From: Neisseriaceae bacterium
GTDB taxonomy: Bacteria > Pseudomonadota > Gammaproteobacteria > Burkholderiales > Chromobacteriaceae
Direction: 5' to 3'
NCBI GenBank assembly: GCA_027489245.1
Contig: JAIYAC010000026.1
Location: forward strand, 1-64,000
DNA: 64,000 nt
Within the stretch, counting starts at the first letter, position 1, and every line of letters starts with the position of its first letter. Shown here in pieces: positions 108-64,000 of this stretch. The notes below the pieces were generated by a model, which was not told the DNA's origin, did not search any database, and worked only from the letters and a program-made list of their open reading frames with translations. The position numbers and the translations under genes were made by a program.

Positions 108-132
108 AAGTTGGCCGCAAGCGGCCAACTTG
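108..132 (-). terminator. Intrinsic terminator built from an inverted DUS-like pair, downstream of sixA
   Basis: AAGTTGGCCGC-AA-GCGGCCAACTT perfect stem; on the - strand it is followed by TTTTTCGTTTTT. Confidence 0.8.
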
Positions 133-154
133 GTGAGGTGTGGGTTTGCCTGAC

Positions 155-616
155 TTAAAGTGATTCGAGCATGGCGGGTGTCATCATGGCTTTGAGGCGG
201 ATTTGCTCGATGCCGTGGCGTTCGCGATGGTTCAGCCACCAGACGGAGCCCTTCTTCACGCTCCATAGCAGCGGCTGTTCGCTAAGCAATGTGGCTGCCA
301 GGCGGCCGATGTAAGGCTGGTGCCCTACCAGGACGATGGTTTTGCCGCATTCCGGCCAGCCTACGGCAGCCAGGACTTCTTCTACAGAAGCATCCGGGTT
401 CAATGCCGGCAGGATCTCGTAGCTTTTTGCCAGAAAGGCTGCGGTTTGCTGGGAGCGCACGGCTTCCGATGCCAGCAAACGGTAATTGTCGGGTAGCTGT
501 TTGTGCAGCCAGTCGGCCATGCGACGGGCTTGCTGTTGGCCGCGGCGGGTCAGCGCGCGGGCCAGGTCGTCATTGCCGTCTTCGGCTTCGGCGTGTCGCC
601 ATAGAATCAGGTCCAT
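155..616 (-). CDS. sixA: Phosphohistidine phosphatase SixA (histidine phosphatase family)
   Basis: MDLILWRHAEAE (RHG-like) N-terminus, VGHQPYIGRLA motif, 153 aa. Confidence 0.85.
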   Translation of the reverse strand: MDLILWRHAEAEDGNDDLARALTRRGQQQARRMADWLHKQLPDNYRLLASEAVRSQQTAAFLAKSYEILPALNPDASVEEVLAAVGWPECGKTIVLVGHQPYIGRLAATLLSEQPLLWSVKKGSVWWLNHRERHGIEQIRLKAMMTPAMLESL

Positions 617-673
617 GGGTGTTCCTCGGTGAATGTTGTTGTGTTTATGGTGTTGCAGTGTAGCGATGCGCCA

Positions 674-1381
674 TTACAGCATCAGGTAATGCACCAGAAT
701 GGGGGCAAGAATGGCTGTAAACAAGCCGGTCAGCCCCATGGCCAGACCGGCAAAGGCACCGGCAGTTTCCGATAGCTGGAAAACACGCGCAGTGCCGATG
801 CCGTGTGCAGCCACGCCGGTGGCGACGCCGAGCACCACATCGTCGTGGATGCGCATCAGCTGTATCAGCGGCTTGGCACAGATGGCACCGATGATGCCGG
901 TAACGATAACAAAGGTAGCCGCCAGTGCGGGGATCCCCCCCAACACCTCGGCCACGCCCATGGCAATCGGTGTGGTAGCAGAACGCGGCGCCAGCGATAG
1001 CACCATGGTACGGGGCATATCAAACAGCAGGCCTGCGCAAACCGCCGTGACGACCCCGGCAGCGCTACCGATAACAATGGCCAGCAGGATGGGCAAGCCA
1101 CTTTTACGCAGCCGGCCCAGGTTGTTGTACAGCGGGATCGCCAGCGCCACAGTCACCGGCCCCAGTAGAAACTGGATAAAGCCGGCGCCTTTCATGTACT
1201 GCTGGAAATCCATGCCCAGCAACAGTAATACCGCAATCACCATGACTGCCCCCATCAGCACCGTATTGGCCAGCGGGTGGCCGTGATAGCGGCGGCTGAG
1301 GGTGAGCGCGGTGCGATAGGCGGCCAACGTTAGCAGCAGGCCGGTGAGCGGGGCGTTTTGCACCCAGGCCAGTACGCTCAT
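674..1381 (-). CDS. LrgB/CidB family membrane protein
   Basis: LrgB-like membrane protein (SLAPRSATTPIAMGVAEVLGG, HGIGTARVFQLSETAGAFAGLAMGL); start trimmed to MSVLAWVQ, overlapping the upstream gene by 4 nt. Confidence 0.85.
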   Translation of the reverse strand: MSVLAWVQNAPLTGLLLTLAAYRTALTLSRRYHGHPLANTVLMGAVMVIAVLLLLGMDFQQYMKGAGFIQFLLGPVTVALAIPLYNNLGRLRKSGLPILLAIVIGSAAGVVTAVCAGLLFDMPRTMVLSLAPRSATTPIAMGVAEVLGGIPALAATFVIVTGIIGAICAKPLIQLMRIHDDVVLGVATGVAAHGIGTARVFQLSETAGAFAGLAMGLTGLFTAILAPILVHYLML

Positions 1382-1734
1382 GCCGGCCTCCTGCGCTTTT
1401 GCCACCACAGCCCCAGCTGCAACACCAGCGCGGTGATGATGAAGGTAGACAGTGTAGCCACCACCAGCAGGATGGGCAGGCTCAGCGGGTGCGCCGACAG
1501 CATGGGCCAGAACGCCAGGATGCCCACCCCCGCGGGGATGAACAGCAGCGACATATGCGTCATCAGTCGCGGGATATTGTCGCGCAGCGCACGCGGCACA
1601 CCGCGGCGCGCGCACAGTGTAATAAACAGCAGCAGCATGCCCAGCACGGCGCCAGGCACTGGCCACCCCAGGCTACGGGCGATGACTTCGCCCATAAACT
1701 GATACGCCAGCAGCCAGATAAAGGTTTCGATCAT
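1378..1734 (-). CDS. CidA/LrgA family holin-like protein
   Basis: IARSLGWPVPGAVLGMLLLF and PAGVGILAFWPML; adjacent to lrgB-like gene; start trimmed to MIETFIWLL. Confidence 0.85.
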   Translation of the reverse strand: MIETFIWLLAYQFMGEVIARSLGWPVPGAVLGMLLLFITLCARRGVPRALRDNIPRLMTHMSLLFIPAGVGILAFWPMLSAHPLSLPILLVVATLSTFIITALVLQLGLWWQKRRRPA

Positions 1735-1803
1735 GACAATAAGAATACAAGGTTGGCCGCAAGGGCAGGACAGCACAAAGCACGTTTTGGCATAATGCCG
1801 CCC

Positions 1804-2337
1804 ATGGATGAAAAACAACGCTGGTCGGCTACGCTGCCAGCATGCAGCCCTTTACTGGCAGCGTGCATGGCGACGCGTGGCTCGCTGACCGAACACCTGA
1901 TGGCAACCGGCCACCCTTTTGCGGTAGATGTGCTGGCACAGGGCCAGACAGCTATCTACGCCGACGAGGCGGAACTGCTGCAGATTAGCGCAAAGCAGCC
2001 GGTTTATGCCAGACACGTTCGATTGATGCTGAATGGCGAAGCCGTAGTCGTCGCCCGCAGCATTACCCTACAAGACAGCCAGGCTTGGCGCCCGATACTG
2101 GAACGCGGCAGCCGCTCGCTGGGCCTCACGCTGTTTGGCGGCCTGCCCGGCCTGGGGCGCGAAGCGCTGCAGTTCCTGCAAACCGCCGCCCCGCACCCGC
2201 TGCACACCCTGGCCAGCGCTTACGATACGCAACACGCTACTCAGCTGGGTGCCCGACGCTGCCGCTTTACCCTGGCCAACTCCCCGCTGCTGGTGAGCGA
2301 GGTGTTTTTACCGGCCCTGGAGAATTACCTGCGATGA
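1804..2337 (+). CDS. ubiC: Chorismate lyase (UbiC)
   Basis: Chorismate lyase-like sequence immediately upstream of and overlapping ubiA. Confidence 0.85.
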
Positions 2338-3212
2338 ACACTGCCCTGCTGCGCGAGCGCGCCACCGTCTATGGCCAACTGATGCGCGTAGACCGGCCCA
2401 TCGGCACCCTGCTATTACTGTGGCCCACGCTATGGGGCCTGTGGCTGGCGTCCAAAGGCCGGCCAGACTGGCTGGTGCTGCTGGTTTTTGTACTGGGTAC
2501 TTTTCTGATGCGCTCGGCCGGCTGTGTGATTAACGATTACGCCGACCGCCATTTTGACGCCCACGTCGCGCGCACCGCCCAGCGCCCGTTTGCCCGCGGG
2601 GCCGTCACCGAAAAAGAGGCGCTATGGTTGGCCGCAGGCCTGGCGCTGCTCAGCCTGCTGCTGGTGCTGCCGATGAACAGCCTGACGCTGCTGATGAGCA
2701 TCCCGGCGGTGCTGCTGGCGGCCACCTACCCGTTTACCAAGCGCTTTTTTCCGCTGCCGCAGGCTTATCTGGGGCTGGCATTTTCGTTTGGCATCCCCAT
2801 GGCCTACGCCGCACAAACCGGCCGCGTCGACAGCACCGCGTGGTGGCTGCTGGCGGCCAACCTGTTCTGGACAGTCGCCTACGACACCGCCTACGCCATG
2901 GCCGACAAACCGGACGACCTGAAAATCGGCATCAAGACCTCGGCCATTACCTTTGGCGACTACGACGTGGCCGCCATCATGCTGTGCCACGGCGTGTTCA
3001 TGGCGCTGATGCTGGGCCTGGGCTGGCAGCTGGGGCTGGGCTGGCCCTACTTTAGCGGCCTGGCGATCTCGGCCGTGCTGATAGGCAAGCAGTATCTGGA
3101 GATTCGCACCCGCGACCGCGGCCTGTGTTTCAAAGCTTTTCTGGACAATAACCGTGTCGGCGCGGTGATATTTGCCAGCCTGCTGCTGGAATACGGACTG
3201 TTGGCGCACTAA
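2334..3212 (+). CDS. ubiA: 4-hydroxybenzoate octaprenyltransferase (UbiA)
   Basis: [64 protein letters not shown]. Confidence 0.95.
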
Positions 3213-3363
3213 GCCCCCATCCTGCGTTACGCTGCCGGGGCGCAGGGGCGGTGCGGGTGTTGATGCGGGCGGCCCCGCAACACGCTGAAAAATTTCGATA
3301 ACATTAACTGGAAATTTCAGCACCATGCACCAAACTCCGCTTATTCACTACCGGAGTTTTTTC

Positions 3364-3678
3364 ATGCCCGCCTTTGCCGACATTCTGCCCACCCTGCCCG
3401 CCATCGACCATATCACCGCACTGAGCCTGCATAACGCTGCCGGCGAGCAAGTGGCGCTGATAGAAGCCAAACCCGGCTCCAGCGGCTCGGTACGCCTGTA
3501 CCACGCCCTGTGGCTGCAGCACGGCTGTATCAACCACGCCGCTGCGCAGCAAGGCCTGGCGCTGTACGCCGAGCACACCGCCGACGCGCTGGCCTTCCCC
3601 GGCAAGCACCCCAATATCGACCGCCTGCTGGCCATTGGCCCCAACGACGCGCTGAGCGTGCAGCTGGTGCTGGCCTGA
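3364..3678 (+). CDS. Small conserved protein, DUF2322-like
   Basis: MPAFADILPTLPAIDHI..., about 104 aa, followed by terminator; family from memory. Confidence 0.6.
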   Translation: MPAFADILPTLPAIDHITALSLHNAAGEQVALIEAKPGSSGSVRLYHALWLQHGCINHAAAQQGLALYAEHTADALAFPGKHPNIDRLLAIGPNDALSVQLVLA

Positions 3679-3696
3679 TACCCTGGCCCCCAACGC

Positions 3697-3724
3697 AAAA
3701 CACCCCGCCGCAGCGGGGTGTTTT
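3697..3724. terminator. Bidirectional intrinsic terminator
   Basis: AAAACACCCCGCCGCAGCGGGGTGTTTT between convergent genes. Confidence 0.85.
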
Positions 3725-3767
3725 ACTAGCCAGACAGGTTAGCCGCAGCTTGCGGCCAACGTGCGGG

Positions 3768-5012
3768 CTAGATGTCCTGCCCTTCGACTATGCCATCGTG
3801 GCTAGCCGACTTGCCTGGCAGTATCAGGTTCAGAATCAGCGCCAGCACCGAGCACAGGCCCACGCCAACCAGGCCGAACGAACCGAACTTCAGCTCCAGG
3901 CCACCGATACCGGCCGTCAGCACCACCGAGATGATCACCAGATTGCGTGGCTCCATCAGGTCTACCTTGGCTTCAATCAGCGTTTTCAGGCCGATGGAGG
4001 CAATGGTACCGAACAGCAGCACCATGATGCCGCCCATCACCGGCATAGGAATGGACTGCAGCAGCGCGTTGAACTTGCCAAAGAACGCCATGGCAATGGC
4101 AAAAATGGCTGCCCAGGTCATCACGACCGGGTTGAAGTTGCGGGTAATCATCACCGCGCCGGTTACCTCGGCGTAGGTGGTCACCGGCGGGCCGCCGATC
4201 AGGCCAGCCACACACACGCCCAGGCCATCGCCAGCCAGGGTGCGGTGCAGGCCCGGGGTCTTGGTGTAGTCCTTGCCGGTCACACCACCAATGGCCATCA
4301 CGCCACCGATGTGTTCAATCGCCGGGGCAATAGCCACTGGCAGCATGAACAGCGCCGCTGCCCAGTTCACTTCCGGGCTGTGGAATACCGGCGCCGCAAA
4401 CCACGGCGCGTTGGCCACCTTGGCAAAATCCACGACACCCATGAAGGATGCAGCGATATAGCCTACGGTCACACCCGCCAGAATCGGTACCAGCTTGAAC
4501 ATGCCACGGGCGTAGATCGATACCGCAATGGTGGTCGCCAGCGAAATGGCGGCCAACAGCAACGAGGTTTCATACGGCATCACCTGCTGGCCACCCGCAC
4601 GGCCCATGGCCATATTGGACGCCGCATTGGCGACCGACAGACCGATGATCATGATTACCGGGCCGATCACCACCGGTGGCAACAGCTTGTTCACCAGCGC
4701 CATGCCACGCCATTTCACGATGGCAGCAAACACAAAGTACATGAAGCCGGCAAAGAACAGGCCAAACATGGTGGCGCCCTGCCCCCAGGTTTGCATCGAA
4801 TAAATGATGGGGCCGATAAAGGCAAAAGACGATCCCAGGAAGATGGGCACCTGGCGGCCGGTGCACAGCTGGAACAGCAGGGTGCCCAGGCCGGCGCCGA
4901 GCAGTGCCATGGCGGGGTTCAGGCCGGTCAGCAGCGGCACCAGTACCAGCGCGCCAAAGGCGACGAACAGGATCTGGGCGCCGGACAGGGCCACTTTCAC
5001 TTGTTGGAACAT
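3768..5012 (-). CDS. uraA: Uracil/xanthine permease family (UraA-like)
   Basis: NCS2 signature regions (FLGSSFAFIGPI, AIAPAIEHIGGVMAIGGVTGKDY, GGPPVTTYAEVTGAVMITRNFNP); start trimmed to MFQQVKVAL. Confidence 0.85.
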   Translation of the reverse strand: MFQQVKVALSGAQILFVAFGALVLVPLLTGLNPAMALLGAGLGTLLFQLCTGRQVPIFLGSSFAFIGPIIYSMQTWGQGATMFGLFFAGFMYFVFAAIVKWRGMALVNKLLPPVVIGPVIMIIGLSVANAASNMAMGRAGGQQVMPYETSLLLAAISLATTIAVSIYARGMFKLVPILAGVTVGYIAASFMGVVDFAKVANAPWFAAPVFHSPEVNWAAALFMLPVAIAPAIEHIGGVMAIGGVTGKDYTKTPGLHRTLAGDGLGVCVAGLIGGPPVTTYAEVTGAVMITRNFNPVVMTWAAIFAIAMAFFGKFNALLQSIPMPVMGGIMVLLFGTIASIGLKTLIEAKVDLMEPRNLVIISVVLTAGIGGLELKFGSFGLVGVGLCSVLALILNLILPGKSASHDGIVEGQDI

Positions 5013-5059
5013 AGGTTTTACCTTCTTGTTGTTGAATGCTTTGTGCTTGCGCGGTGGCA

Positions 5060-5701
5060 TTACACCGTGCAGTACGTCATGTTGTTATCCGTTAGCAGCT
5101 GCGTACTGTGCTGGCGAAACTGCGCCACCATGGCCTGTACCTGCTGGTACGTGTGGTACGCCGGCTGCGCCTGGTAGGCCAGATCCACGCCTAGCCGGGC
5201 GGCCAGCTTCTTGACCGTCGTCGGCTTGACGCAAACGTGCTGCTGCGGGTCACTGTACGCCAGAAAAGCCGTGACCAGTGGCCACTTGGCAGCGTTGGCG
5301 TTTTTGTCGTGGCGGCACAGCAGCAGCACGTCGACAAAATCGTCAAAGTTGGCCGCATCGCAGCGCCCTAGCACCGCGTACAGGCAGCGCACAAACGGCT
5401 CGTGTACATCGGTAAACGCCAGATAATTGCGAAAGGCAATCTTCTCGAAGGTGCTTACCGTGGTACAGCGCCCGACAAACTGCCTGCAGGCCTCGATCAC
5501 CTCGCCATAGCGGCGCTGCGCGATGGCTGCGGCCAACACCGGCTGCGACAGTGCCGTATCAAACAGCGCCATGGCCTGCAGCGTACTGCGGTGCTTTTTG
5601 CCCAGCGCCAGCCAAGCCGGGTCTTGCAAGCCACCGGGAAAGCGCCGCAGAAAGTCCTGCTCGATCTGTGCTGCCTGCGACAGGCTGATGTGGTTTGTCA
5701 T
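5060..5701 (-). CDS. Hypothetical protein between uraA and upp
   Basis: Intact ORF, start MTNHISLSQ; no family recognised. Confidence 0.7.
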   Translation of the reverse strand: MTNHISLSQAAQIEQDFLRRFPGGLQDPAWLALGKKHRSTLQAMALFDTALSQPVLAAAIAQRRYGEVIEACRQFVGRCTTVSTFEKIAFRNYLAFTDVHEPFVRCLYAVLGRCDAANFDDFVDVLLLCRHDKNANAAKWPLVTAFLAYSDPQQHVCVKPTTVKKLAARLGVDLAYQAQPAYHTYQQVQAMVAQFRQHSTQLLTDNNMTYCTV

Positions 5702-5733
5702 GCTGCCCCCCAGGTTGGCCGCGGCTGCAAAAA

Positions 5734-5753
5734 AGCCGCTTTTGCAAGCGGCT
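5734..5753 (-). terminator. Intrinsic terminator of upp
   Basis: AGCCGCTT-GCAA-AAGCGGCT followed by TTTTTT on - strand. Confidence 0.8.
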
Positions 5754-5765
5754 GTCTGCCAGGTA

Positions 5766-17151: not shown

Positions 17152-17182
17152 GGGTTGGCCGCAGCCATGCGGCCAACCTTTT
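17152..17182 (+). terminator. Intrinsic terminator from an inverted DUS-like pair
   Basis: GGTTGGCCGCA-gcca-TGCGGCCAACC then TTTTGCTTTT; no annotated + strand gene directly upstream. Confidence 0.75.
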
Positions 17183-17222: not shown

Positions 17223-17774
17223 TCAGGGCTGATCGCCCACCAGGTAGCGTTTGCTCATCTGCTTGAACAGCGCCGACCCCGACACCCGCAAGCACTCGAA
17301 CAGCACCATCTCACGCGTTACCAGCACCGCCCCGGCATCCCGCATGCGCTGCAGGCCGTACTCGCGGTTAAGCTCGCCGCGGCTGGACACCGCATCCGCT
17401 ACCACAAACACCTGCTTGCCTGCCTGCAACAGCTCCATCACCGTTTGCAGCACGCAAACGTGCGCTTCCATGCCGCAAACGATGACCTGGTGGCGCGACA
17501 TCAGGCCATCAGGTAAACACTGGCCGGCCACGCAGGAGAAATGCAGCTTTTCCACCACGTCAGCCTGCGGTGCGGCCTCTAGCAGAAGTGGCAAAGTGCC
17601 GCCCAAGCCCTGCGGGTACTGTTCGGAAAACACCACCGGCAGCCCCAGATCCACCGCCGCCGCAACCAGCCAATGGCAGCGCGCTACCATGCCGTCGGCG
17701 TCCAGTACGGCGGGCACCAGCTTTTCCTGTATATCCACCACCAATAGCGTGGCATCGTCTTTTTCGATAAGCAT
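17223..17774 (-). CDS. Isochorismatase family cysteine hydrolase
   Basis: ATLLVVDIQEKL, VVEKLHFSC, VIVCGMEAHVCVLQT, VFVVADAVSSR. Confidence 0.9.
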   Translation of the reverse strand: MLIEKDDATLLVVDIQEKLVPAVLDADGMVARCHWLVAAAVDLGLPVVFSEQYPQGLGGTLPLLLEAAPQADVVEKLHFSCVAGQCLPDGLMSRHQVIVCGMEAHVCVLQTVMELLQAGKQVFVVADAVSSRGELNREYGLQRMRDAGAVLVTREMVLFECLRVSGSALFKQMSKRYLVGDQP

Positions 17775-20740: not shown

Positions 20741-20880
20741 GCAGCCACGCGCCTGCGGCCAACCTTGCTGCCCGTGCCGGCTTGCCCGCACGGGCAGTTG
20801 CCATTTGGCGGGCTGCAATGGCAAGGTAAAGCTTCGGGCACGGCCAGCCGCCGCCGCAGCCCATCAACTCCGGAGCCCCC

Positions 20881-21936
20881 ATGGCTTATACCATTCGTCG
20901 TCTGCAGCCCACCGATGCGGCTGCGCTGTTCCGCCTGCGCCAATCGCCCGGCGTCGTACGCAACACCCTGCAGCAGCCGTTCCAGTCGCTGGCGGCCACC
21001 CAAGCCTTTCTCGATCACTACCCGGAAACCAGCCACGCGCTGGTAGCCTGTACCGAAAGCGGCGAGCTGGTGGGCTGTGGCGGCCTGCATCTGCCAGGCC
21101 ATAGCCTGCGCCGCCGCCATAGCGCGCTGTTCTTTTTGTTCGTGCGTGACGACTGGCAGGGCAAGGGCGTGGGCAGCGCCCTGCTACGCGCGGTGCTGGA
21201 CTACGCCGACAACTGGCTGGACCTGAAGCGCATCGAGCTGGACGCCGTGCACGACAACCACGGCGCCATCGCGCTGTACGAGCGCTTTGGCTTCCGCCAC
21301 GAAGGCGTCAGCCGTGGCTTCAACCTGCGCGAGGGGGTGTACGAAGATGCTGTGCTGATGGCGCGGCTGCGCTTTCGCGAGGGCGAACTGGGCGACGGGG
21401 TGGGTGCATCCAGCGACCAGACTGTCGAGCGCGTGCCCGCCGGCAGCCCCTTCAGCTTGCGCCACGCCGAGCCGGGCGACGCCGCCGGCATGGCTGCGCT
21501 GATGGCCTACGACAGCACCTACGGCAACACGCTGCAGCTGCCCTACCCCACCACGGCCAACTGGCAAAAACGGCTGGCCAAGCACGGCGGCACAATACTG
21601 GTAGCCTGCGACGCGGGCGGTGCCCTCATCGGCCACTGCGGCAGCTGGGCGCCGCACGACAACCCGCGGCTGGCACACATCGTTGGCGTAGGCATTACGG
21701 TAGCGCCAGCATGGCAAGGCCGGGGCGTGGGCAGCGCGCTGCTATCCGCCATGGTGCAGCAGGTGCGCGATTACCAGCCCTACCGCCGCATGGAGCTGAC
21801 GGTATTTGCCGGCAACACGCCGGCCATTGCGCTCTACCGCAAACTGGGCTTCCAGCAGGAAGCCGTGCTGGCAGGCTACGCCTTCCAGGCCGGGCAGTAC
21901 CGCAATTGCCTGCAGATGAGTTTGTGGCTGAAATAA
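20881..21936 (+). CDS. Double-domain GNAT acetyltransferase (two fused GNAT modules)
   Basis: Two acetyl-CoA motifs: DDWQGKGVGSALLRAV and APAWQGRGVGSALLSAM; two NH-rich C-terminal segments (HDNHGAIALYERFGF, AGNTPAIALYRKLGF). Confidence 0.88.
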   Translation: MAYTIRRLQPTDAAALFRLRQSPGVVRNTLQQPFQSLAATQAFLDHYPETSHALVACTESGELVGCGGLHLPGHSLRRRHSALFFLFVRDDWQGKGVGSALLRAVLDYADNWLDLKRIELDAVHDNHGAIALYERFGFRHEGVSRGFNLREGVYEDAVLMARLRFREGELGDGVGASSDQTVERVPAGSPFSLRHAEPGDAAGMAALMAYDSTYGNTLQLPYPTTANWQKRLAKHGGTILVACDAGGALIGHCGSWAPHDNPRLAHIVGVGITVAPAWQGRGVGSALLSAMVQQVRDYQPYRRMELTVFAGNTPAIALYRKLGFQQEAVLAGYAFQAGQYRNCLQMSLWLK

Positions 21937-21990
21937 GCAGATGGAGATACTCAGTCTCGCCATCGCAAGACTGAGTAAACGCGCCGACCT

Positions 21991-22686
21991 CTAATTGATC
22001 GGCGAGGTGACTGGCAGAACAAGACGGATTGCATAACGGATCGAATCTGACAGCTGTCTTCGTAAGCGCTGCTGCATATCGGACTGCTGCTGTGGGGTGT
22101 AGTCAGCAAAACTAGGCTTGAAGGGCAAGTCCATATCTGCACGCCCCTTACATGGCAGTTCTCCACCTAATTCCCAGCCGAGTTGATTGCGGGTTGCCAC
22201 ATCGTAGACCGAAACCGTGTAAAAAGCATAAATGCAGCGCGACTCAATGCCGAGTAGGCTTCGTTCGGAAAAGCCATAGCCTTTTTTAAACTGCGGCATA
22301 TCCGGACGACTCACCGGCCGCAAAACTAGCAATCGGTCATAGTGCTGATTGGCAGCAGCACGCCAGAAATCCTCTTGTTCAAGCACGGCCTCTTCTACAC
22401 GGGCCCACGACATGATCGAGACCTCGAATGGATAGCTTGTTGACAAAGCGCGTAGAACTTCCTGCTCGGCAAAGTCGTTTATCTGCCAGTGACTGACATC
22501 CGCCTCAAAAGCGCTGTTCTGGAAAACCGTGGTTCCGATGGAGACGCCATGAAACTGGTTACTCATTAACGATACAACCCCCAAGTGCTTGCTTGTCGCA
22601 ATTTCACTTTGTGGCACTGGCCCCTTCAACCCCGCGCAGCCTGCCAGCAACAGTGTTGATATAAATGCACATAGCCATTGTTTCAT
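21991..22686 (-). CDS. Putative lipoprotein of unknown function
   Basis: Lipobox LLAGCAG; region visibly AT-richer than surroundings. Confidence 0.7.
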   Translation of the reverse strand: MKQWLCAFISTLLLAGCAGLKGPVPQSEIATSKHLGVVSLMSNQFHGVSIGTTVFQNSAFEADVSHWQINDFAEQEVLRALSTSYPFEVSIMSWARVEEAVLEQEDFWRAAANQHYDRLLVLRPVSRPDMPQFKKGYGFSERSLLGIESRCIYAFYTVSVYDVATRNQLGWELGGELPCKGRADMDLPFKPSFADYTPQQQSDMQQRLRRQLSDSIRYAIRLVLPVTSPIN

Positions 22687-22766
22687 ACCGTCTCCTTTTT
22701 ATCGAAATAGCATTATAACATTGCCTAATGCATGATTTCACGCCAGCCAGAGAAACACTAAACGAC

Positions 22767-22796
22767 AAAGCCCCGCAATGCGGGGCTATTTTTTGA
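22767..22796 (-). terminator. Intrinsic terminator
   Basis: AAAGCCCCGCAATGCGGGGCT hairpin. Confidence 0.7.
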
Positions 22797-22809
22797 CCAC
22801 CCGGCGCGC

Positions 22810-22992
22810 TTAGCGCTTGCCGAAATGGTAGGGCGACAGCTTGTAGTACGGGTTCAGCGGGTGCCAGCCGGACAGGGCTTTGGGCTGTGCCGTCAGGCGG
22901 GTACGCACGGCACCGGCCAGAAAGGCCAGAGCACCACCCACGATGGGCATCAGCAGAAAGTAGACCGCGCACAGCACAATCAGGGTTTCCAT
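22810..22992 (-). CDS. Small (60 aa) membrane protein
   Basis: METLIVLCAVYFLLMPIVGGALAFLAGAV hydrophobic N-terminus; RBS-like tctcc (complement) upstream. Confidence 0.6.
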   Translation of the reverse strand: METLIVLCAVYFLLMPIVGGALAFLAGAVRTRLTAQPKALSGWHPLNPYYKLSPYHFGKR

Positions 22993-23004
22993 GATTTTTC
23001 TCCA

Positions 23005-23022
23005 ATAATGTCTAGACATTAT
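23005..23022. promoter_or_regulatory. 18-bp perfect palindrome, candidate operator
   Basis: ATAATGTCTAGACATTAT just upstream of RBS of the 22810-22992 gene; core fits GT-N-TA-N-AC. Confidence 0.5.
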
Positions 23023-23097
23023 CGGCCAGGGCAACAGAAAAATCGTTCAGAAACAGGACACTAGCTTTGGCAGGCGCGACATGGCGGCGCAGAAAAA

Positions 23098-23126
23098 CAA
23101 AAAGCCGCCCGAAGGCGGCTTTTTTG
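23098..23126 (-). terminator. Intrinsic terminator of the rpsF-priB-rpsR-rplI operon
   Basis: AAAAAGCCGCCCGAAGGCGGCTTTTTT. Confidence 0.9.
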
Positions 23127-23145
23127 ATGATGCCGTTACGCTGGA

Positions 23146-23595
23146 TTAAACAGCAGCAACAACAACGATCTTCACTGCAGCAACCACGTCGTGGTGCAGA
23201 GCGATTTCAACGTCGTACTCACCGATAGCCTTCAGCTGGCCGTTCGGCAGACGAACTTCGAAACGCTTAACTGCAACGCCAGTAGCGGTGATGGCTTCGG
23301 CGATGTCAACGTTGGTTACGGAACCGAACAGACGGCCGTCAACACCCGCTTTTTGAGCGATGGTGAAGGAAGCGTCTACCAGTTTTTCAGCGCGAGCTTT
23401 CGCGTCTGCCAGAATTTCAGCCTGTTTGGCTTCCAGCTCGGCACGGCGAGCTTCGAATTCTTGCAGGTTAGCGGCGGTTGCGCGTTTTGCTTTGCCTTGC
23501 GGGATCAGGAAGTTACGGGCGTAGCCGTTCTTCACGTTTACCACGTCACCCAGTACACCCAGGTTAGCAACTTGTTCGAGCAGAATGATTTGCAT
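23146..23595 (-). CDS. rplI: 50S ribosomal protein L9
   Basis: [36 protein letters not shown]. Confidence 0.98.
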
Positions 23596-23618
23596 CTTGT
23601 CGTATCCTTATCCCGGAA

Positions 23619-23846
23619 TTAATGCTGGTCGGTGTACGGCAGGAAGGCCAGGAAGCGCGCGCGCTTGATGGCTTCGGACAGCTGACGCTGATAGCCTGCT
23701 TTGGTGCCGGTGATACGGGCCGGGATGATTTTGCCGTTTTCGGCAATGAAGTCCTTCAGCAGATCAACGGATTTGTAGTCGATTTCCTTGATGCCTTCCG
23801 CGGTAAAGCGGCAGAACTTCTTGCGCTTGAAGAGTTGACGAGCCAT
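23619..23846 (-). CDS. rpsR: 30S ribosomal protein S18
   Basis: [30 protein letters not shown]. Confidence 0.98.
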
Positions 23847-23850
23847 GTGA

Positions 23851-24168
23851 TTAACCTTTAACAAATTCAACAAATTCGATGTGTAGAACCAACCGCGGAT
23901 TACGGAGACTGCGCTGATTCAGAAAGCCTGTGCAGTGCACGGTGTTTCCTGCCATCTTCCCTGCCAGCTGTTTGGCTAGCGCCCCCATGGCTACGGCCTG
24001 TATTTCGCAGGACACGTCGCGCTCCAGGGTGGCAATGGTTTGCCGGGAGTGGTGCCTTAGCCACATTTCCAGTACCGGCATGCCGGCTGGGGTGTGTCGC
24101 AAAGGGTCTTCGCGTTCGACCGTAACGGTCAGTTCAAGTCGGTTCTGCAAGGATGCAGTGTTGCCCAA
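23851..24168 (-). CDS. priB: Primosomal replication protein N (PriB), TTG start
   Basis: Position between rpsF and rpsR; OB-fold-like ECxxxGQ-type sequence; TTG GGC AAC start. Confidence 0.85.
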
Positions 24169-24546
24169 TTAGGCAGCTACTTCAGCCTCGGCTGCAGCTT
24201 GCTGGCCTTCCAGCAGGCTCTTGGCCTTTTCGTCCTTCATCATCGGGGATGCTTCGGTGATAGCACGAGTCATCTTGATGGTCAGGTGACGCAGAACGGC
24301 GTCGTTGAATTTGAAGGCGTGCTCGATCTCGGCCAGCGTTTCCGGAGCGCACTCAACGTTCATCAGAACGTAGTGAGCTTTGTGAACTTTCTGGATCGGG
24401 TAAGCCAGTTGACGACGGCCCCAGTCTTCCAGACGGTGGATCTTGCCATCAGCGTTCAGGACCATGCCCTTGTAACGCTCAACCATAGCACCAACCTGTT
24501 CGCTCTGATCCGGATGGACGATGAACACGATTTCGTAATGCCGCAT
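24169..24546 (-). CDS. rpsF: 30S ribosomal protein S6
   Basis: [25 protein letters not shown]. Confidence 0.98.
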
Positions 24547-24693
24547 GTGAACTCCTTGTGGCTATAAAGCCCTTCGTCATGCGCGATAGCGAAGGGCAAG
24601 GGTTAAAAGCTGAAGATTGTACGGAGTTTGGCCTGCGCTAGCAAGCCAAACGCGTGGATATTCAGGTATTTGCTGCCCGCAGCGGCCAGCGTG

Positions 24694-24900
24694 TCAGCCG
24701 ATTACATCAAAACCGGCGTTTTCTACTGCCTGTTGCCAGGCAGCGGGCTGCGCGTCACCGTCAAAACGGATGGTCACGGCCTTGCTGGCCAGGTCTACCT
24801 GCACCTCGGCCACGCCGGCTACCGCCTGCAGCGCGCGGCTGACGCCGGCGGCGCAGCCGCCGCAGGTCATGCCGTCTACCTTGATGATTTGCTGGTTCAT
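24694..24900 (-). CDS. copZ: Heavy-metal-associated (copper chaperone, CopZ-like) protein
   Basis: GMTCGGCAAGVSRAL MxCxxC motif. Confidence 0.85.
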   Translation of the reverse strand: MNQQIIKVDGMTCGGCAAGVSRALQAVAGVAEVQVDLASKAVTIRFDGDAQPAAWQQAVENAGFDVIG

Positions 24901-24914
24901 GCTTGTTCTCCTGT

Positions 24915-25220
24915 TCAACGCATTTTCTTGAGCAGGGCCATCACCTCGGCGATGGCCTCGTCGCTATTGCCTTCGTTTACCGCACGGGCCACGCAGCCCT
25001 TGAGGTGGTTTTCCAGCAGCTGCTGCGCCACGGCGTCCAGCGCCGAACGCGCAGCGGCGATCTGGGTGAGCACATCCACGCAGTAGCGGTCGCCTTCTAT
25101 CATGCCGGCGATGCCGCGCACCTGGCCCTCCAGCCGCGCCAGGCGCTTCATCAGCGCGGCCTTGTCGGGCTGCACCACGCTTTTCGGGCTGCTGCAGCAG
25201 TCGTGTTGTGGTTCAGTCAT
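24915..25220 (-). CDS. CsoR-family metal-sensing transcriptional repressor
   Basis: [26 protein letters not shown]...[11 protein letters not shown] ligand pattern of Cu-CsoR. Confidence 0.85.
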
Positions 25221-25223
25221 GGT

Positions 25224-26723
25224 TTAGCCCGGCAAAAAGTCGATTTGCGCCATCATGCCCTGGTCTTCGTGCTCCAGGATGTGGCAGTGGAACATGCGCA
25301 GGCCGGGCAGCGTCTGCACGAAGCGCAGGCGTACCATGCCGCCAGCCGGCACGTTGACGGTATCGCGCCAGGCCAGGAAGGGCTCGTCCTCCCAGAGGCC
25401 ATCTACCGTGCGCGCCAGTACCTGGAACTGCGTGCCGTGCAAGTGGAACGGGTGGTCCATGTGCGCATCGGCAATCACTTCCCATTCCTCGATGCGGCCA
25501 ACCTGCCCGGTGCCGTCGATGCGGTTCATGTCGTAGCTTTGGCCGTTAATCAGGAACGGCGCTTTCGGGTCGGCCATGTTTTCGGATAGCACGATCTTGC
25601 GGCGAAAACCCGGTGCGCCCAGCGGTGCAATAGGCCGCAGGCTGGCGGGCAGCGCCAGGGTTGGCCGCATGCCATGGGCCACAATGCTGGCCAGCGTGTC
25701 GTCTTTTTCCTGCTCCGGGTGCATGCGCTTGCCACGCTCGTAGGGCTGGCTGATCAGGCCCGCCGGCTGGCCGGGCTTGAAGCGGCCGGTAACCACCAGC
25801 TCGCAGCGCTCGCCTGGCGACAGCAGCACGCTGTCTACCGGCAGCGGCGCGCCGATCAGGCCGCCGTCGGTGCCCACCAGCTGTACCTCGTGTGCCGGCA
25901 GTGCCAGTTTGATGATGCGGCTGCTGCTGGCGTTCCAGATGCGCCAGCGCTGGCGCTCGCCTTCGCCCAGCGTGATCACTGGCTGCCACGCGCCGTTGAT
26001 CAACACGAACTGGCCTTCGCGGCCATCGTGCAGGTCGGCCATATCGTTGGCCGCAATCTGGCCATCGGTGGCCAGCTTCAGGTCGGACAGCAACAGGTGG
26101 CGCTCTGGCAGGTGGCGCAGCGGGTCGGTTTTGCTACGCACGATAATCGGGCCGGCCAAACCGCGAAACGCCTGCTCGGCAGTATGGCCGTGCGGGTGCG
26201 GGTGGTACCAGTAGGTGCCGGCGCAGCCTTGCGGCAGCGTGTAACGGTAGCGGCGCCCCTTGCCTGGCAGCACCGGGTCTTGCGGGTTGCCGTCCTCTGC
26301 CGGTGGCACCGGCATACCGTGCCAGTGAATGGTAGAAGGCTGCGGCAGCGCGTTATCAAAACCGATATCGACTTCGTCGCCTTCCCATAGCTCGATCAGC
26401 GGGCCGGGCACGCTATCGTTAAAAGCCCAGAAGGTGGTTTGCCGGGCATCGCCCCACAGGGCTACCTGCACCGGTGCGGCGCGCAGGCTGGCGGCAAAAC
26501 AGCCGGGCTCTGCCGCCTGGTTGACCAGCGGCTGCAGGGCGGGCAGGTGCTCGCCACGCGGCAGGCTCAGGCCCTGGGCGGCGGGCGCGGGCGCGGGCAT
26601 GGCGTGGCCCATATCGTGACCCATGGCCGCGTGGTCCATGGCGGTTTGTGCTTGCGCCTGGCGCAGCGCAGGTAGCGCCACGGCCAGCAGGCCGGCGGCT
26701 TTCAGAAAATGACGACGTTGCAT
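25224..26723 (-). CDS. Multicopper oxidase, Tat-exported
   Basis: RRHFLKA Tat signal; HWHGM, YWYHPHPHGHTAEQ, HPFHLHGTQF, MFHCHILEHEDQGMM copper motifs. Confidence 0.92.
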   Translation of the reverse strand: MQRRHFLKAAGLLAVALPALRQAQAQTAMDHAAMGHDMGHAMPAPAPAAQGLSLPRGEHLPALQPLVNQAAEPGCFAASLRAAPVQVALWGDARQTTFWAFNDSVPGPLIELWEGDEVDIGFDNALPQPSTIHWHGMPVPPAEDGNPQDPVLPGKGRRYRYTLPQGCAGTYWYHPHPHGHTAEQAFRGLAGPIIVRSKTDPLRHLPERHLLLSDLKLATDGQIAANDMADLHDGREGQFVLINGAWQPVITLGEGERQRWRIWNASSSRIIKLALPAHEVQLVGTDGGLIGAPLPVDSVLLSPGERCELVVTGRFKPGQPAGLISQPYERGKRMHPEQEKDDTLASIVAHGMRPTLALPASLRPIAPLGAPGFRRKIVLSENMADPKAPFLINGQSYDMNRIDGTGQVGRIEEWEVIADAHMDHPFHLHGTQFQVLARTVDGLWEDEPFLAWRDTVNVPAGGMVRLRFVQTLPGLRMFHCHILEHEDQGMMAQIDFLPG

Positions 26724-27408: not shown

Positions 27409-27444
27409 CGCAAAACCACGTTGGCCGCGGCCAACCTTGGCGGC

Positions 27445-28191
27445 TTAGCCCTGCTTGAGCACGCGCTGACGGCGGCTTTCGCTCAGTACCATGCCGGACG
27501 ATACCGACACGTTCAGGCTCTCTACGGTGCCGAACATGGGGATGGACACCAGCACGTCGCAGTGCTCACGCGTCAGGCGGCGCATGCCCTCGCCTTCCGC
27601 CCCCATCACCCAGGCCAACGGGCCGCTGGCGTCAAAGTGATACAGGTCGGTATCGGCTTCCATGGTGGTACCGGCAATCCACACCCCGGCGTCTTTCAGG
27701 TCGCGCAAGGTGCGCGCCAGATTGGTTACCGTGATGTAGGGCATCACCTCGGCAGCACCGCAGGCTACCTTGGACACGGTGGCATTCAGCGTGGCGGTGC
27801 GGTCTTTCGGGGCGATGACAGCGTGCGCGCCCATGGCGTCGGCCACGCGCAGGCAGGCACCCAGGTTATGCGGGTCGGTGACGCCGTCCAGAATCAGCAG
27901 CAGTGGCGGCTCGGACAGGTTTTCCAGTACGTCGTCCAGGGTGACGAAATTCTGGTTGGCGTCGATCATGGCCACCACGCCCTGATGGCGGGCATTGCCG
28001 GTCAGGCTGTCCAGGCGGGCCTTGTCCACAATGTGGGCTTTCACGCTCTCGCTGGCCGCTTTGTCCAGCACGGCTTGGGCACGGGCGTCCTGACGGCCGC
28101 CCGCCAGAAAGATTTCCAGCACGGATTTCGGGTTTTGCCACAGGCGGGCATTAACGGCATGAAAGCCGTGAATGAGTTTCTTGTTGCTCAT
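27445..28191 (-). CDS. rlmB: 23S rRNA (guanosine-2'-O-)-methyltransferase RlmB
   Basis: [58 protein letters not shown]. Confidence 0.95.
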
Positions 28192-57366: not shown

Positions 57367-57511
57367 GGCGAAGACCTTGAATCAAAACCGGCAATTGTAG
57401 CGCAAGCAGTACAAAAAGAGAGCGTTTGCGTGGCGGCGCACAATACAGGTACAGTCGTTGCCGAGATCACCCGGCGGGGCACAGCCCTGCAGCAAAACAG
57501 ACAAGAACATC

Positions 57512-58804: not shown

Positions 58805-58824
58805 GCACCACACCGCCCAAGACA

Positions 58825-58855
58825 AAACCGCTGCCGCCACGCAGCGGTTTTTTTA
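58825..58855 (+). terminator. Intrinsic terminator of aroA
   Basis: AAAACCGCTGCCGCCACGCAGCGGTTTTTTTA. Confidence 0.9.
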
Positions 58856-58924
58856 TGCATGGTGGCTTGCCAGCACATAGCCAAAAACACAAAATATGCC
58901 ACTCTAAAAACAACAAGGCACAAG

Positions 58925-59368
58925 ATGATGAGCAACCCGTTTGAGCAGCGCCGTGACTTCATGCAGCGCTTCGACATGGCCGTGCCGGCGCAGCCGCAGT
59001 ACCAGCCGCAGGCGCTGGCCATGTGGCAAACCATGCTGCAGGAGGAGTGGCAGGAGTTCAGCAGCGCGCTGGCCGACTATCAGGCCATGCCGCAAGCGGA
59101 TGCCGCCACGCAGCAGCAATTACAGGCCGAGTTGGCCGCAGAAGGCGTGGACGTGCTGAATGTGCTGTGCGGGCTGTTGCTGTCGCAGGGCTTGCCGCTG
59201 CAGGCGATGTTCGACGCCATCCATGCGGCCAACCTGGCCAAGTGCGCGGGCGGCCAGGTGCTGCGCCGCGCCGATGGCAAGATCCTGAAACCGGCCGGCT
59301 GGCAGCCGGCCGACAAACTGGGCGTGATCCGCGCCGCCGCCAGCCGCCTGGACGGCACGCAGTCGTAA
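58925..59368 (+). CDS. MazG-like/phosphoribosyl-ATP pyrophosphohydrolase-like protein
   Basis: MWQTMLQEEWQEFSSAL, EGVDVLNVLCGLLLSQGLPL, IHAANLAK. Confidence 0.7.
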   Translation: MMSNPFEQRRDFMQRFDMAVPAQPQYQPQALAMWQTMLQEEWQEFSSALADYQAMPQADAATQQQLQAELAAEGVDVLNVLCGLLLSQGLPLQAMFDAIHAANLAKCAGGQVLRRADGKILKPAGWQPADKLGVIRAAASRLDGTQS

Positions 59369-59382
59369 CAGAAGACGGCGGC

Positions 59383-59841
59383 TTAGCGGCGTGTTGCGGC
59401 CAACCTTTGCAGCAGCTTGTCCAGCTGGGCGCCAAAGGCCTGGCGGTCGCGCTGGCTGAACGCCGCCGGGCCGCCGGTTTGTACGCCGCTATCGCGCAGC
59501 TCGGTCATGAAATTACGCAGCGCCAGCGCCTCGCGGATGGTGGCGTCGCTGTACAGCTCGCCGCGCGGGTTCAGCGCCAGCGCGCCCTTGGCCACCACCT
59601 GCGCGGCCAGCGGAATATCAGCGGTGACGACGATGTCGCCCGGCTGCGCCTGCTGGGCGATGTGGTTATCGGCTACGTCGAAACCGGCTGGCACCTGCAC
59701 GGCACGGATATGTGGCGATGGCGGCACGCGCAGCAGCTGGTTGGCCACCAGCACGGTAGCGGTAGCGGTGCGGTCGGCCGCGCGAAACAGGATATCCTTG
59801 ATGACCGCCGGACAGGCGTCGGCGTCTACCCAGATCGTCAT
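59383..59841 (-). CDS. UPF0178/DUF188 (YaiI/YqxD) family protein
   Basis: [54 protein letters not shown]. Confidence 0.93.
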
Positions 59842-60743
59842 GCGTTGCCCCGGTTGAAGTGTTGTTGCCATTGCTGGCGGGCTTCGCGGGCGCGCTCGAA
59901 ACGCGTGGTCATGGCCTCCGCGTCGCCTGCCAGCAGCTCCTGGCGCAGTGCGGCCAAGGTTGCCTGGAAGGCATCCAGCTCGGCCAGCAGTGCGTCACGG
60001 TTGGCCAGCGCGATGTCGCGCCACATCTCAGGGTGGCTGCCGGCAATGCGGGTAAAGTCGCGAAAGCCGGTGGCGGCAAAATCGAAACAGCGCGCCGCAT
60101 CGGCTTTGGCCACGATGGTGTCTACGTAGGCAAAGGCCAGCAGGTGCGGCAGGTGGCTCACAGTGGCAAACACCGCGTCGTGCTCGGCGGCGCTCATCTC
60201 GTACACACGGGCGCCGCAGGCTTGCCACAGCGCGCGCACCAGGGCGGCGGCGGCAGGGCGGGTTTCCGGCAGCGGGGTGACAACGATGCGGCGGTTATCG
60301 TACAGGCCGTACTGGGCAGCGGCAGCGCCAGACAAGTCGGAGCCGGCAATCGGGTGCGCCGGTACGCAGCTGGCCAGGTGGGCTGGCAGGTGCTGGCGCA
60401 TCAGCGCCACCACGTCGCTTTTGGTGCTGCCGCCGTCGGTTACCACACAGTGTGGTGGCAGGTGTGGGGCGATGTCGGCAAACACTCGCGCCATCTGCCC
60501 CACCGGGGTGGCCACCAGCACCACGTCGGCGTGGCGTACCGCGTCGGCCGCGCTGTGGCTGGCCTCGTCTATCACGCCCAGCTCGATGGCACGCTGCAGG
60601 TTGGCCGCAGAGCGCCCTACGCCGATTACCTTTGCCACCCGCCCGGCACGGCGCAAGGCTAGCGCAAACGAGCCGCCAATCAGGCCCACGCCGATTACTA
60701 CCAGGGTCAATCCGCCCTCACCCGCCTGCATGCTATCGCCCAT
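59838..60743 (-). CDS. tyrA: Prephenate dehydrogenase
   Basis: [50 protein letters not shown]. Confidence 0.92.
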
Positions 60744-60801
60744 CACTGTCTGTTCAGAGCCGTTATCATAACCGCATTCGTGTGTACTCAAGGGAGCCAC
60801 C

Positions 60802-61098
60802 ATGCACTGTTCGCTGTATATCTATTACCGCGTCAATGGCAATTTCCTGCCATTTCAGCAAGCCTCGGCCAGGCTAATGGCAGAAGTTCATGAAAAATTG
60901 CGGATAACAGGCAGACTATTGCAACGTCGCGATGACGCACAAACCTGGATGGAAATCTACGAGCCGGTCACCGACGCCGCCGCGCTGCAGCAGCTGCTCG
61001 CCGAAGGGGTGGCCGGCGACCCGTGCTGGCAGGGTGTCAGCAGACACGAAGAATGGTTTGTACCGCTGCCTGCTGAAATGAGCCAACCGATAGCATAG
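60802..61098 (+). CDS. DUF4936-like protein
   Basis: LYIYYRV...WMEIYEPV, about 98 aa. Confidence 0.7.
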   Translation: MHCSLYIYYRVNGNFLPFQQASARLMAEVHEKLRITGRLLQRRDDAQTWMEIYEPVTDAAALQQLLAEGVAGDPCWQGVSRHEEWFVPLPAEMSQPIA

Positions 61099-61232
61099 CG
61101 CCTCAGCCCTGCCGCATGACAATAAACTAGACATTTAATATCAATAATTTACCTGCAAAATTTAATTTATTGCCAAGTTGAAATTGCCGCCGCCACTCCC
61201 TAGCCTGACTGTAAACACTCGGGGAGAAAAAC

Positions 61233-62852
61233 ATGTATCAGCTCTTCAGCATCCGGCAAAAGCTGCTGGCGGCCTTTGGCATCATCTTGCTACTGATGGC
61301 CATGATGGCCGCACTGGTCATGCAGAAGCTCAATGTGATCGAGCACGACCTGGAAGAAATCGTCGAGGATCTCAGCCCGGAAATGGTGCTGTCCGCCGAG
61401 CTGATGCAGCTCAGCATGGACAACGCGCTCCTGGCGCACCGGCGCCACCTGCAAGATAGCCCGGCACTACAGCAGCAAATGCAGCAGCACCGCCAGCAAA
61501 GCCTGGCGGCGCTGGACAAGCTGCAGCAGCTGGAACACAAGGATGCCGGCAAGCAGCAGCTACAGCAGCTGCAAGGCTTGCTGCAAGCCACGCACGCCAG
61601 CCAGCTGCAATTCGACCAGCTGCTGGCCAGCCACGATGCTGGCGCCGGCCAATGGCTGCTACAGCGGCTAGACCCGCAAACCGACACACTCGTCACGGCA
61701 CTCAAGCAGTTCATTGCCCTGCAACGTCAGACCATGCAGCGCGCCGAACAAGAAGCCATCACCAGCTACCACCAGGCCGAAACCACGCAGCTGATCGTGG
61801 GGCTGGCTTCCCTGCTGCTAGGCACGGCCATTGCCTGGCTGTTTGCCGGCAAGCTATCGGGCCACCTGCGCAGCCTGGTGCGCGAGACGCAACGCATTGC
61901 CGCGGGCGACCTGCGCCCGCGCACGCACCCCTTACCCGCCGCCAAACGCGACGAAACACTGCAGCTGGCACACGCCACGGACAGCATGCGCCAGCAGCTG
62001 GCCGATACGCTAGCCAGCATCCGCCAATCGTCGTTTGCCGTCAGCGATGCCTCGCACGAGCTGTCGAGCATGTCGGAACAAGTGGCCATCAGCGTACAGC
62101 GCCAGGCCGAAGCCACCGGGGAAGCCAGTGCCACGCTGGAAGAACTGACGGTCAGCATCAACCACGTATCGGACAATGCCGAAGAAGCCAACCAGCGCTC
62201 GCAGCAGGCCGGGCAGCAAGCCGGGCAAGGCGTGGCGGCCGTGCAGGCGTCACTGCAGCTGGTGCGCCAGGTTGGCCGCAGCGTGCAGCAAACCGGCCAG
62301 GCGCTGGGTGAGCTCACACGCGAGGTACAAGAGATCGACCGCATTGTGACCGTGATCCGCGAGGTAGCCGACCAGACCAACCTGCTGGCGCTGAATGCCA
62401 GCATCGAGGCCGCACGCGCGGGTGAAGCCGGGCGCGGCTTTGCCGTAGTGGCCGACGAGGTACGCAAGCTGGCCGAGCGCACCGCCACCGCCACGGGTGA
62501 CATCACCGGCATGATTGGCCGCATCCGCCAGGGCGTGCACGATGTAGAACACCAGATGGGTCAAAGCGAACAGCAAATGACACAAGCAGACCAGGCCACA
62601 CAGGGCAGCAGCCATACCATACAGGCGGCGCAGCAATTCAGCGCGCAGGCCAGCCAGGCAGTGGGCGGCATCAGTGCGGCGCTGGGCGAACAGCGCGGTG
62701 CCAGCCAGGTACTGGCCTGCAGCATGGAACAGGTGGCGCAGATGGCCGAGGAAAACAGCGCAACCGTAGAGGAGCTGGCTACCACGTCCAGCCAGCTGAG
62801 CGCGCTGGCCGACAGCATGCAGCAGATGGTGGCGCGCTTCCGGCTGGCCTGA
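61233..62852 (+). CDS. Methyl-accepting chemotaxis protein
   Basis: HAMP plus [47 protein letters not shown]. Confidence 0.95.
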
Positions 62853-63656
62853 TCAGGCGGCGGGCAGGTGCTGCTGCAGGCGGGCGGCCAGCGGCCAGGC
62901 CTGCCATGTGCGCCCATCCAGCTGGCGCACCGGCCAGATACCGGCCAGGCTATTGCAGACGAACACTTCATCCGCGGCCAACAGTTCGGCAGGCAACACG
63001 CGCTGCTCGGCTACCGTCATACCCAGCTGGCGCGCGGTCTCGATGATGCAGGCGCGCATGGCACCGGATACGCCGCAGCGGTCCAGCCGCGGCGTAAACA
63101 GCTGCCCCGCTTGCACCCAGAACAGGTTGCTCATGGTGCCTTCCACCACGGTGCCATCGCTGTCCAGCATCAGACCTTCGGCGATGGCCGGGTCGCTCCA
63201 CTCGCTGCGCGCCAGCACGTTTTCCAGCCGATTCAGGTGTTTGATCCCCGCCAGCAAAGGCTGCAAGCCCAGCTGCGTGCTGCACCAGCGCAGCGCAATG
63301 CCCTGCGCGGCACGCTCGGCCGGGTAACCCACCCACGCGGCAGCGCTGACGATGCGGGTAGGCTGCACCGTGGCCGGTATGGCGTAGCCACGTTGGCCGC
63401 TGCCACGCGTCAGCACCACCTTGGCCACGGCGCGCGGCAAGCCGGCGCAGACGGTGGCGATTTCTGCCAGCAGCAGCGCCTCGTCCGGGCACGGCAGGCG
63501 CAAGGCGGCGCAGTCTGCGGCCAACCTTTGCCACTGCCAGCGCCATAGGCGGGGCTGGCCAGCCAGTACTTCCAGCGTGCGGTACAGGCCGTCGCCGTAG
63601 GCCAGGCCACGGTCGCTAGCCGGCAGGCTGTCTGCGACGACACCATTGATCAGCAT
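62853..63656 (-). CDS. pabC: Aminodeoxychorismate lyase
   Basis: GLAYGDGLYRTLEVLAGQPRLWRWQWQRL, VEGTMSNLFWVQAG, GVSGAMRACIIETA. Confidence 0.9.
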   Translation of the reverse strand: MLINGVVADSLPASDRGLAYGDGLYRTLEVLAGQPRLWRWQWQRLAADCAALRLPCPDEALLLAEIATVCAGLPRAVAKVVLTRGSGQRGYAIPATVQPTRIVSAAAWVGYPAERAAQGIALRWCSTQLGLQPLLAGIKHLNRLENVLARSEWSDPAIAEGLMLDSDGTVVEGTMSNLFWVQAGQLFTPRLDRCGVSGAMRACIIETARQLGMTVAEQRVLPAELLAADEVFVCNSLAGIWPVRQLDGRTWQAWPLAARLQQHLPAA

Positions 63657-64000
63657 GCCAGCTCCTTGCCCAGGCAAATGGACGCGCTGCGGCCAACATA
63701 ATGGCCGTAAGGGGGAATCTCGCGGTAGCCGTGGCGCAGGTAAAACTGCACGGCACGGGTATTGATGCGGCGGGTAGACAGCCACAGCTGGCGATAGCCA
63801 AAGCCTGCGGCCTGCTGCTCCAGCGCCGCCAGTAGCTGCACGCCCAGGCCCTGGCTGCCGGGCGCCGCGTACATGCGCTTGAGCTCGGCCACACCCTGCA
63901 GCAAGGGGCGCAGCGCGCCACAGCCATGCGGCTGGCCGCCAGCATCACAGGCCAGCAGGAACACGGCACCGTCGCCGCGCACGTCGTCGGCGTCAAACGA
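63650..64000 (-). CDS. GNAT family acetyltransferase, truncated by window edge
   Basis: ELKRMYAAPGSQGLGVQLLAALEQQA, NTRAVQFYLRHGYREIPPYG; frame open to position 64000. Confidence 0.85.
   Translation of the reverse strand, partial: SFDADDVRGDGAVFLLACDAGGQPHGCGALRPLLQGVAELKRMYAAPGSQGLGVQLLAALEQQAAGFGYRQLWLSTRRINTRAVQFYLRHGYREIPPYGHYVGRSASICLGKELAC

Follow-up and report, generated by a model that had tools for sequence, protein, structure and literature searches.

DNA uptake sequences (DUS) have been described from the Neisseriaceae as eight dialects that all share a CTG core. The 2013 survey that defined them found no obvious DUS in Laribacter, Lutiella, Pseudogulbenkiania or Chromobacterium, and dated the origin of DUS after the split from these genera (PMC3630211). 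Papers from 2025 restate both the universality of the CTG core and the limitation of DUS to two families. The element considered here is the 10-mer GTTGGCCGCA, which is scattered over a stretch of 64,000 nucleotides (hereafter the window, C11:1-64000) of G000, a draft Vogesella genome (3.51 Mb, 61.7% GC, 88% complete). Vogesella, a freshwater bacterium, belongs to the Chromobacteriaceae, a family placed in the order Neisseriales in the NCBI taxonomy. This 10-mer, or the 12-mer AG-GTTGGCCGCA, is very probably the Vogesella DUS, representing a CCG-core branch of Neisseriales DUS that is read by a ComP-type minor pilin. Judging from the genomes, self-DNA tagging for natural transformation probably operates in Chromobacteriaceae, a family thought to be without it.

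The first-pass annotation of the window reported about 50 exact copies of GTTGGCCGCA where base composition predicts fewer than one, and read them as a distinct uptake-sequence dialect with its own receptor specificity. A recount gave 51 copies (28 on the plus strand and 23 on the minus strand), against 0.53 expected from dinucleotide shuffles, and the maximum in 100 such shuffles was 3. Copies occur both inside predicted genes (40 of 51) and in gaps (11 of 51), and a third of them (17 of 51) extend to the 12-mer AGGTTGGCCGCA, much as had been described. The accompanying claim of many one-mismatch variants held in part. Copies that differ in the final A or in the 5'-flanking bases are indeed common, as the 9-mer core GTTGGCCGC is present 73 times, whereas variants inside the nine-base core are near chance. 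The annotation had also discounted a gene-family repeat, which can be ruled out: the flanks of the copies carry almost no information past about three bases.

A genome-wide Markov count had been named beforehand as a possible refutation of the uptake reading. In that count, GTTGGCCGCA is the commonest 10-mer of the genome, with 2,301 copies (1,158 and 1,143 per strand), or 98.6 times the order-3 Markov expectation, while the 12-mer reaches 798 copies and 605 times its expectation. A DUS is typically the top over-represented 10- to 12-mer of its genome, with approximately 900–6,000 copies on both strands, and GTTGGCCGCA falls within this range. The GTTGGCCGC core is strict, with internal single mismatches near chance; the slight excess that does exist includes C-to-T and G-to-A transitions, a pattern that decayed copies would show. 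The tenth base is A in 72% of copies, and A and G are preferred 5' of the core. Based on gene calls from a codon model made in this analysis, GTTGGCCGCA has a density of 1.10 per kb in gaps versus 0.56 per kb in genes. Genic copies occur in all six frames, with most in the frames that read as Leu-Ala-Ala or Ala-Ala-Asn.

Inverted pairs at transcription terminators, a trait of DUS that had been noted in the window, recur throughout the genome. Inverted neighbours within 40 bases number 102 in the +- arrangement and 99 in the -+ arrangement, against approximately 28 expected per kind, while same-direction neighbours total 15. These inverted pairs lie mostly in gaps, at a median of 17 nt from the 3' end of a gene, and a T-rich flank accompanies 60% of the close +- pairs in gaps, compared with 20% of random gaps. 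Two hairpins in the window (Table 1) fold as RNA more stably than shuffled sequences: the one at 17154-17177 at -31.1 kcal/mol (z -4.1), and the one nearest the window's start at -16.7 kcal/mol (z -3.3). The left flank of the latter is A-rich, which equates to a T-rich stretch downstream of the stem for the minus-strand gene. For the overlapping pair of cores, the predicted RNA hairpin was not above chance. An Rfam search of the window returned no matches.

Table 1. Copies and inverted pairs of the 10-mer in the window.
Feature	Position	Strand	Context
GTTGGCCGCA array	110..63697	both	51 exact among 73 GTTGGCCGC cores; ~0.8 exact 10-mers/kb
Inverted pair, two full 10-mers (GTTGGCCGCAgccaTGCGGCCAAC), then T-rich stretch	17154..17177		Terminator-like hairpin; gap after gene ending 16649; faces gene 17223-17774 (-)
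Inverted pair of motif cores, gap 2	110..129		Adjoins 3' end of gene 155-616 (-)
Overlapping inverted pair of 9-mer cores (GTTGGCCGCGGCCAAC)	27420..27435		Gap beside gene 27445-28191 (-)
Example intragenic copy	5348..5357	+	Gene 5060-5701 (-)
Example intragenic copy	59131..59140	+	Gene 58925-59368 (+)

The sites also persist between species. Between Vogesella species at 89% identity, 53 of 68 sites are intact, versus a fraction of 0.45 for control 9-mers; at 78% identity, 32 of 80 are intact, versus 0.23 for control words. Abundance, pairing, preference for gaps and persistence in Vogesella are all known habits of DUS.

Some regions are free of the motif. The longest such gaps in the genome (29, 27 and 13 kb) have a GC content of approximately 50%, and the motif-free gaps that were scanned contain an integrase, MobA, an OLD-like gene and Fic. 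Two islands of 27–29 kb (C20:227419-256601 and C2:35694-63176) carry genes for an integrase, Fic and OLD-like/AAA proteins. In Vogesella, the density of the uptake sequence can serve as a detector of foreign DNA. Within the window, positions 20764-25492 form the second-longest stretch without an exact 10-mer; its predicted genes are few and short, and it adjoins a gene for a CueO-like multicopper oxidase (25224-26723).

The 10-mer is a property of the genus. All 14 Vogesella genomes carry 1,885–2,895 copies, while the 47 genomes outside Vogesella have at most 58; 11 copies were found in 21 kb of Vogesella indigofera DSM 3303. Two further forms emerged when k-mers in 20-kb segments of sister genera were screened, and whole-genome counts confirmed them. 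Together they make up three dialects, mutually exclusive over 62 genomes: GTTGGCCGCA (CA), GTTGGCCGAA (AA) and GTTGGCCGAG (AG). They differ in their last two bases and have a 5' A/AG context in common. Dialect-bearing genomes of the sister genera are near background for the other dialects, and the forms are, as expected of DUS, constant within a lineage and distinct between lineages. The AA form is found in genera g2, g3, g5 and g10 and in one species of g6, at 185–2,169 copies per genome (including 1245 in G017, 1851 in G022 and 1389 in G018), and the AG form in genus g4 (1940 copies in G025 and 1593 in G016). Whole-genome counts detected no dialect in Chromobacterium (g7), Paludibacterium (g8), g9 or nine of ten g6 genomes, although a few Paludibacterium genomes have a slight excess of dialect words. 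In a set of 401 genomes from the GTDB order, Chromobacteriaceae is the only family in which either the CA or the AA form is abundant. As a positive control, the canonical DUS-like word GNNGNCTGAA occurs approximately 2,300–5,400 times in 10 of 11 genomes of family f44, which is taken to be Neisseriaceae, and 335–632 times, near background, in the Chromobacteriaceae tested.

Several genomes depart from these patterns. One 1.6-Mb genome of family f44 (G149) is without the canonical DUS, having 102 copies of GNNGNCTGAA. The AA dialect is much thinner in G024 (581 copies) than in its genus mate G015 (2169), and in G030 (185) than in G023 and G014 (893 and 1104), which may reflect decay once competence was lost, even though their ComP appears intact. 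In G018, 11 copies of GTTTGCCGAA stand beside 18 of GTTGGCCGAA in 40 kb; the extra word could be another form that is tolerated, or the dialect may be in transition.

According to the first-pass annotation, the motif matches neither the Neisseria DUS nor the Haemophilus USS and lacks the CTG core. This was correct insofar as CCG replaces the CTG core (+6 to +8) in all three Chromobacteriaceae dialects, and the cores of the uptake signal sequences (USS), AAGTGCGGT and ACAAGCGGT, are absent from the over-represented words of the genome and from the motif logo. The motif is nevertheless not unrelated to Neisseria DUS. The AA form, AGGTTGGCCGAA, equals AG-mucDUS and AG-simDUS at 9 of 12 bases, ungapped and in register, with a probability of approximately 0.01 when random 12-mers are compared with seven ungapped dialects on both strands and with small shifts. 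The Vogesella form AGGTTGGCCGCA reaches only 8 of 12 (P ~0.06), and the resemblance therefore rests mainly on the AA form. All bases except +5 and +7 are found at the same place in some Neisseriaceae dialect (dialects from PMC3630211). No description of DUS in Vogesella or Chromobacteriaceae was found in the literature searched, which did not extend to subscription literature and preprints, and a literature search on the motif strings returned nothing on DNA uptake among the matches listed.

The annotation had suggested a check for type IV pilus genes, and these are present. G000 encodes PilQ, PilT/PilB-type ATPases, a full set of prepilins and RecA. DprA is found in all 14 Vogesella genomes and ComEC in 12 of 14. 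Regular-expression searches gave no match for ComM, ComEA, ComF and others, but this approach, which also missed dprA, is too crude for the result to mean absence. A ComP ortholog lies at C1:41419-41835, near aroB, aroK and pilQPO. The three best PDB profile matches of this pilin are ComP of N. subflava and N. meningitidis (E 1.9e-20 to 8.9e-19), with best single values of 1.9e-20 and 2.9e-19, respectively. In a Foldseek search with its AlphaFold (AF2) model (pLDDT 89.6), ComP entries were the only matches under E 1e-3. In both sequence and fold, this pilin is closer to ComP than to other pilins.

ComP orthologs occur in nearly every Chromobacteriaceae genome examined, with g9 as an apparent exception. 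They extend to the dialect-free genome G036, which may be that of Chromobacterium violaceum ATCC 12472. In 2013, no ComP was found in C. violaceum by BLAST (PMC3630211). In the ortholog alignment, a C-terminal cysteine pair (C126, C135) is conserved in the Chromobacteriaceae, while the other two Neisseria cysteines are absent. The beta1-beta2 loop is one of two DNA-contacting parts of Neisseria ComP, and in the region aligned with it, N-[TVA]-D-x-[GD] is found in 23 of 24 orthologs from dialect-bearing genomes and in none of 28 from dialect-free genomes. G018, the sole dialect-bearing genome of g6, has this loop motif, which its sister species lack. Dialect-bearing and dialect-free genomes do not differ in the net charge of the pilin head. 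In G022, which has 1851 copies of the AA dialect, two ComP-like pilins stand in tandem (C3:1518400-1520000), one with GFTLLN for GFTLxE. In G000, a GspH/FimT-like prepilin (C1:40880-41419; L003:968-1504) is encoded directly upstream of comP.

The abundance, distribution, conservation and dialects of the motif, the presence of the genes and the homology to ComP were read directly from the genomes, and the distinct dialect proposed at the outset is the best reading of the counts, the strand balance, the mutually exclusive sister dialects, the pilus genes and the ComP ortholog. From these we infer binding, an uptake bias and a drive that maintains the motif. Free DNA with the motif would be bound by ComP on the pilus surface and drawn through PilQ by pilus retraction; it would then pass through ComEC, with DprA protecting it and RecA recombining it. 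Since tagged DNA would recombine more often, the tag would accumulate and be kept genome-wide, denser in gaps and terminators, where it would do least harm.

A number of points weigh against this reading. The gene comEC is absent from G000 and was also not found in G002; in G000, this looks like missing sequence, because the entire 20 kb around comEC in the near relative G010 is absent as well. A 2025 genetic study of Vogesella used conjugation (PMC12826045). In Neisseria ComP, the disulfide between the DD-region and beta1 is described as crucial (PMC4906244). The Vogesella pilin has two cysteines rather than the four of a two-disulfide DD-region, and this disulfide is therefore missing. The N-x-D-x-G loop is lacking in the ComP of one genome that does bear a dialect, G022 (80% complete, 7% contaminated). 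Finally, the link between loop and dialect amounts to approximately three changes on the pilin tree, and is a lead, since these are too few for a statistical test.

Other explanations could account for parts of this evidence. The motif might be an uptake sequence read by a different pilin, either the GspH/FimT-like protein encoded upstream of comP or the FimT-like member of the minor-pilin cluster on C15. The upstream pilin is a neighbour of comP at each of the 14 Vogesella loci and at no locus of another genus, FimT is reported to bind DNA in natural transformation (PMC8897410), and the Vogesella ComP is without one disulfide that matters in Neisseria. However, the AA and AG dialects occur in genera whose comP loci have no such neighbour, and every dialect-bearing genome has a ComP ortholog, whose DNA-contacting loop differs from that of dialect-free genomes, which makes a different receptor unlikely. 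An account in which competence is irrelevant is less likely still. A HIP1-like or methylation-linked motif could be kept by DNA modification, repair or a nucleoid protein, and the very strict nine-base core, with its near-chance internal mismatches, resembles a modification target. Such an account leaves unexplained the pairing at terminators, the 9/12 similarity to DUS and the association with ComP. It likewise gives no reason for genus dialects that differ in their last two bases, and neither does one based on composition. A codon or composition artefact is in any case rejected, because gaps hold the motif at twice the density of genes and altered control words seldom occur.

A polar, chromosome-organising motif of the Chi or KOPS type is hardly credible. 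Such motifs are also dispersed, frequent and over-represented, and copies of GTTGGCCGCA are slightly more numerous on the G-rich strand (1138 vs 975). However, the resulting leading-to-lagging ratio of 54:46, judged by GC skew, is far from the strong replichore polarity of such motifs, whose strand clustering had been named in advance as evidence against uptake; coding sequence has a comparable strand excess (1.52 vs 1.14 Mb). Nor is this type of motif compatible with the genus dialects or with the inverted pairs at gene ends.

If the motif is a DUS read by ComP, its origin could be older than the Neisseriaceae. On balance, it seems likely that the DUS/ComP system was present in an ancestor shared with Chromobacteriaceae, that the CTG and CCG branches split as ComP loops diverged, and that Chromobacterium, Paludibacterium and most members of another genus later lost the system, the motif being gone there and the ComP loop drifting. 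Were this so, the CTG core and a DD region with two disulfides would be features of the Neisseriaceae branch rather than requirements of recognition by ComP. The Chromobacteriaceae tags challenge the view that both are required. With its three clean dialects, its ComP orthologs, its environmental members and dialect-free relatives in which ComP is retained, this third family offers natural contrasts for asking which ComP residues read the motif. On this reading, tag-carrying DNA should also be the most effective in transforming Vogesella.

Among described systems, the closest are the Neisseriaceae DUS (AG-mucDUS, AG-simDUS and AA-king3DUS; Frye et al. 2013, PMC3630211). Like these, the Chromobacteriaceae tags are 10–12 bases long with a semi-conserved AG in front, occur approximately once per 1.5 kb on both strands, form inverted terminator pairs and have dialects by genus; the Vogesella form also shares C at +9 (ending CA) with king3DUS. 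Unlike them, the tags have C at +7 (CCG for CTG) and G at +5. The candidate receptor resembles Neisseria ComP (2M3K, 5HZ7, 2NBA; Berry et al. 2016, PMC4906244) in being a prepilin of the same fold, with a conserved WPxLP and the C-terminal cysteine pair, and, by our own counting on the alignment, a Vogesella R is aligned to each of R84 and K94 of N. meningitidis ComP. It differs in its 27–28% identity in the fold alignment, its lack of the disulfide between beta1 and the DD-region, its N-x-D-x-G in beta1-beta2, and the location of its gene, which lies near aroB-aroK-pilQ and is preceded by that of a second pilin. The Vogesella tag thus differs from known DUS in core, family and receptor disulfides, and is one for which uptake is inferred. 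More distant are the Pasteurellaceae USS (Hin-USS and Apl-USS, with ComN/PpdA as predicted receptor; PMC12616744), which are likewise dispersed short self-DNA tags linked to type IV pilus competence, but have an unrelated sequence and another predicted receptor, and belong to another bacterial class.

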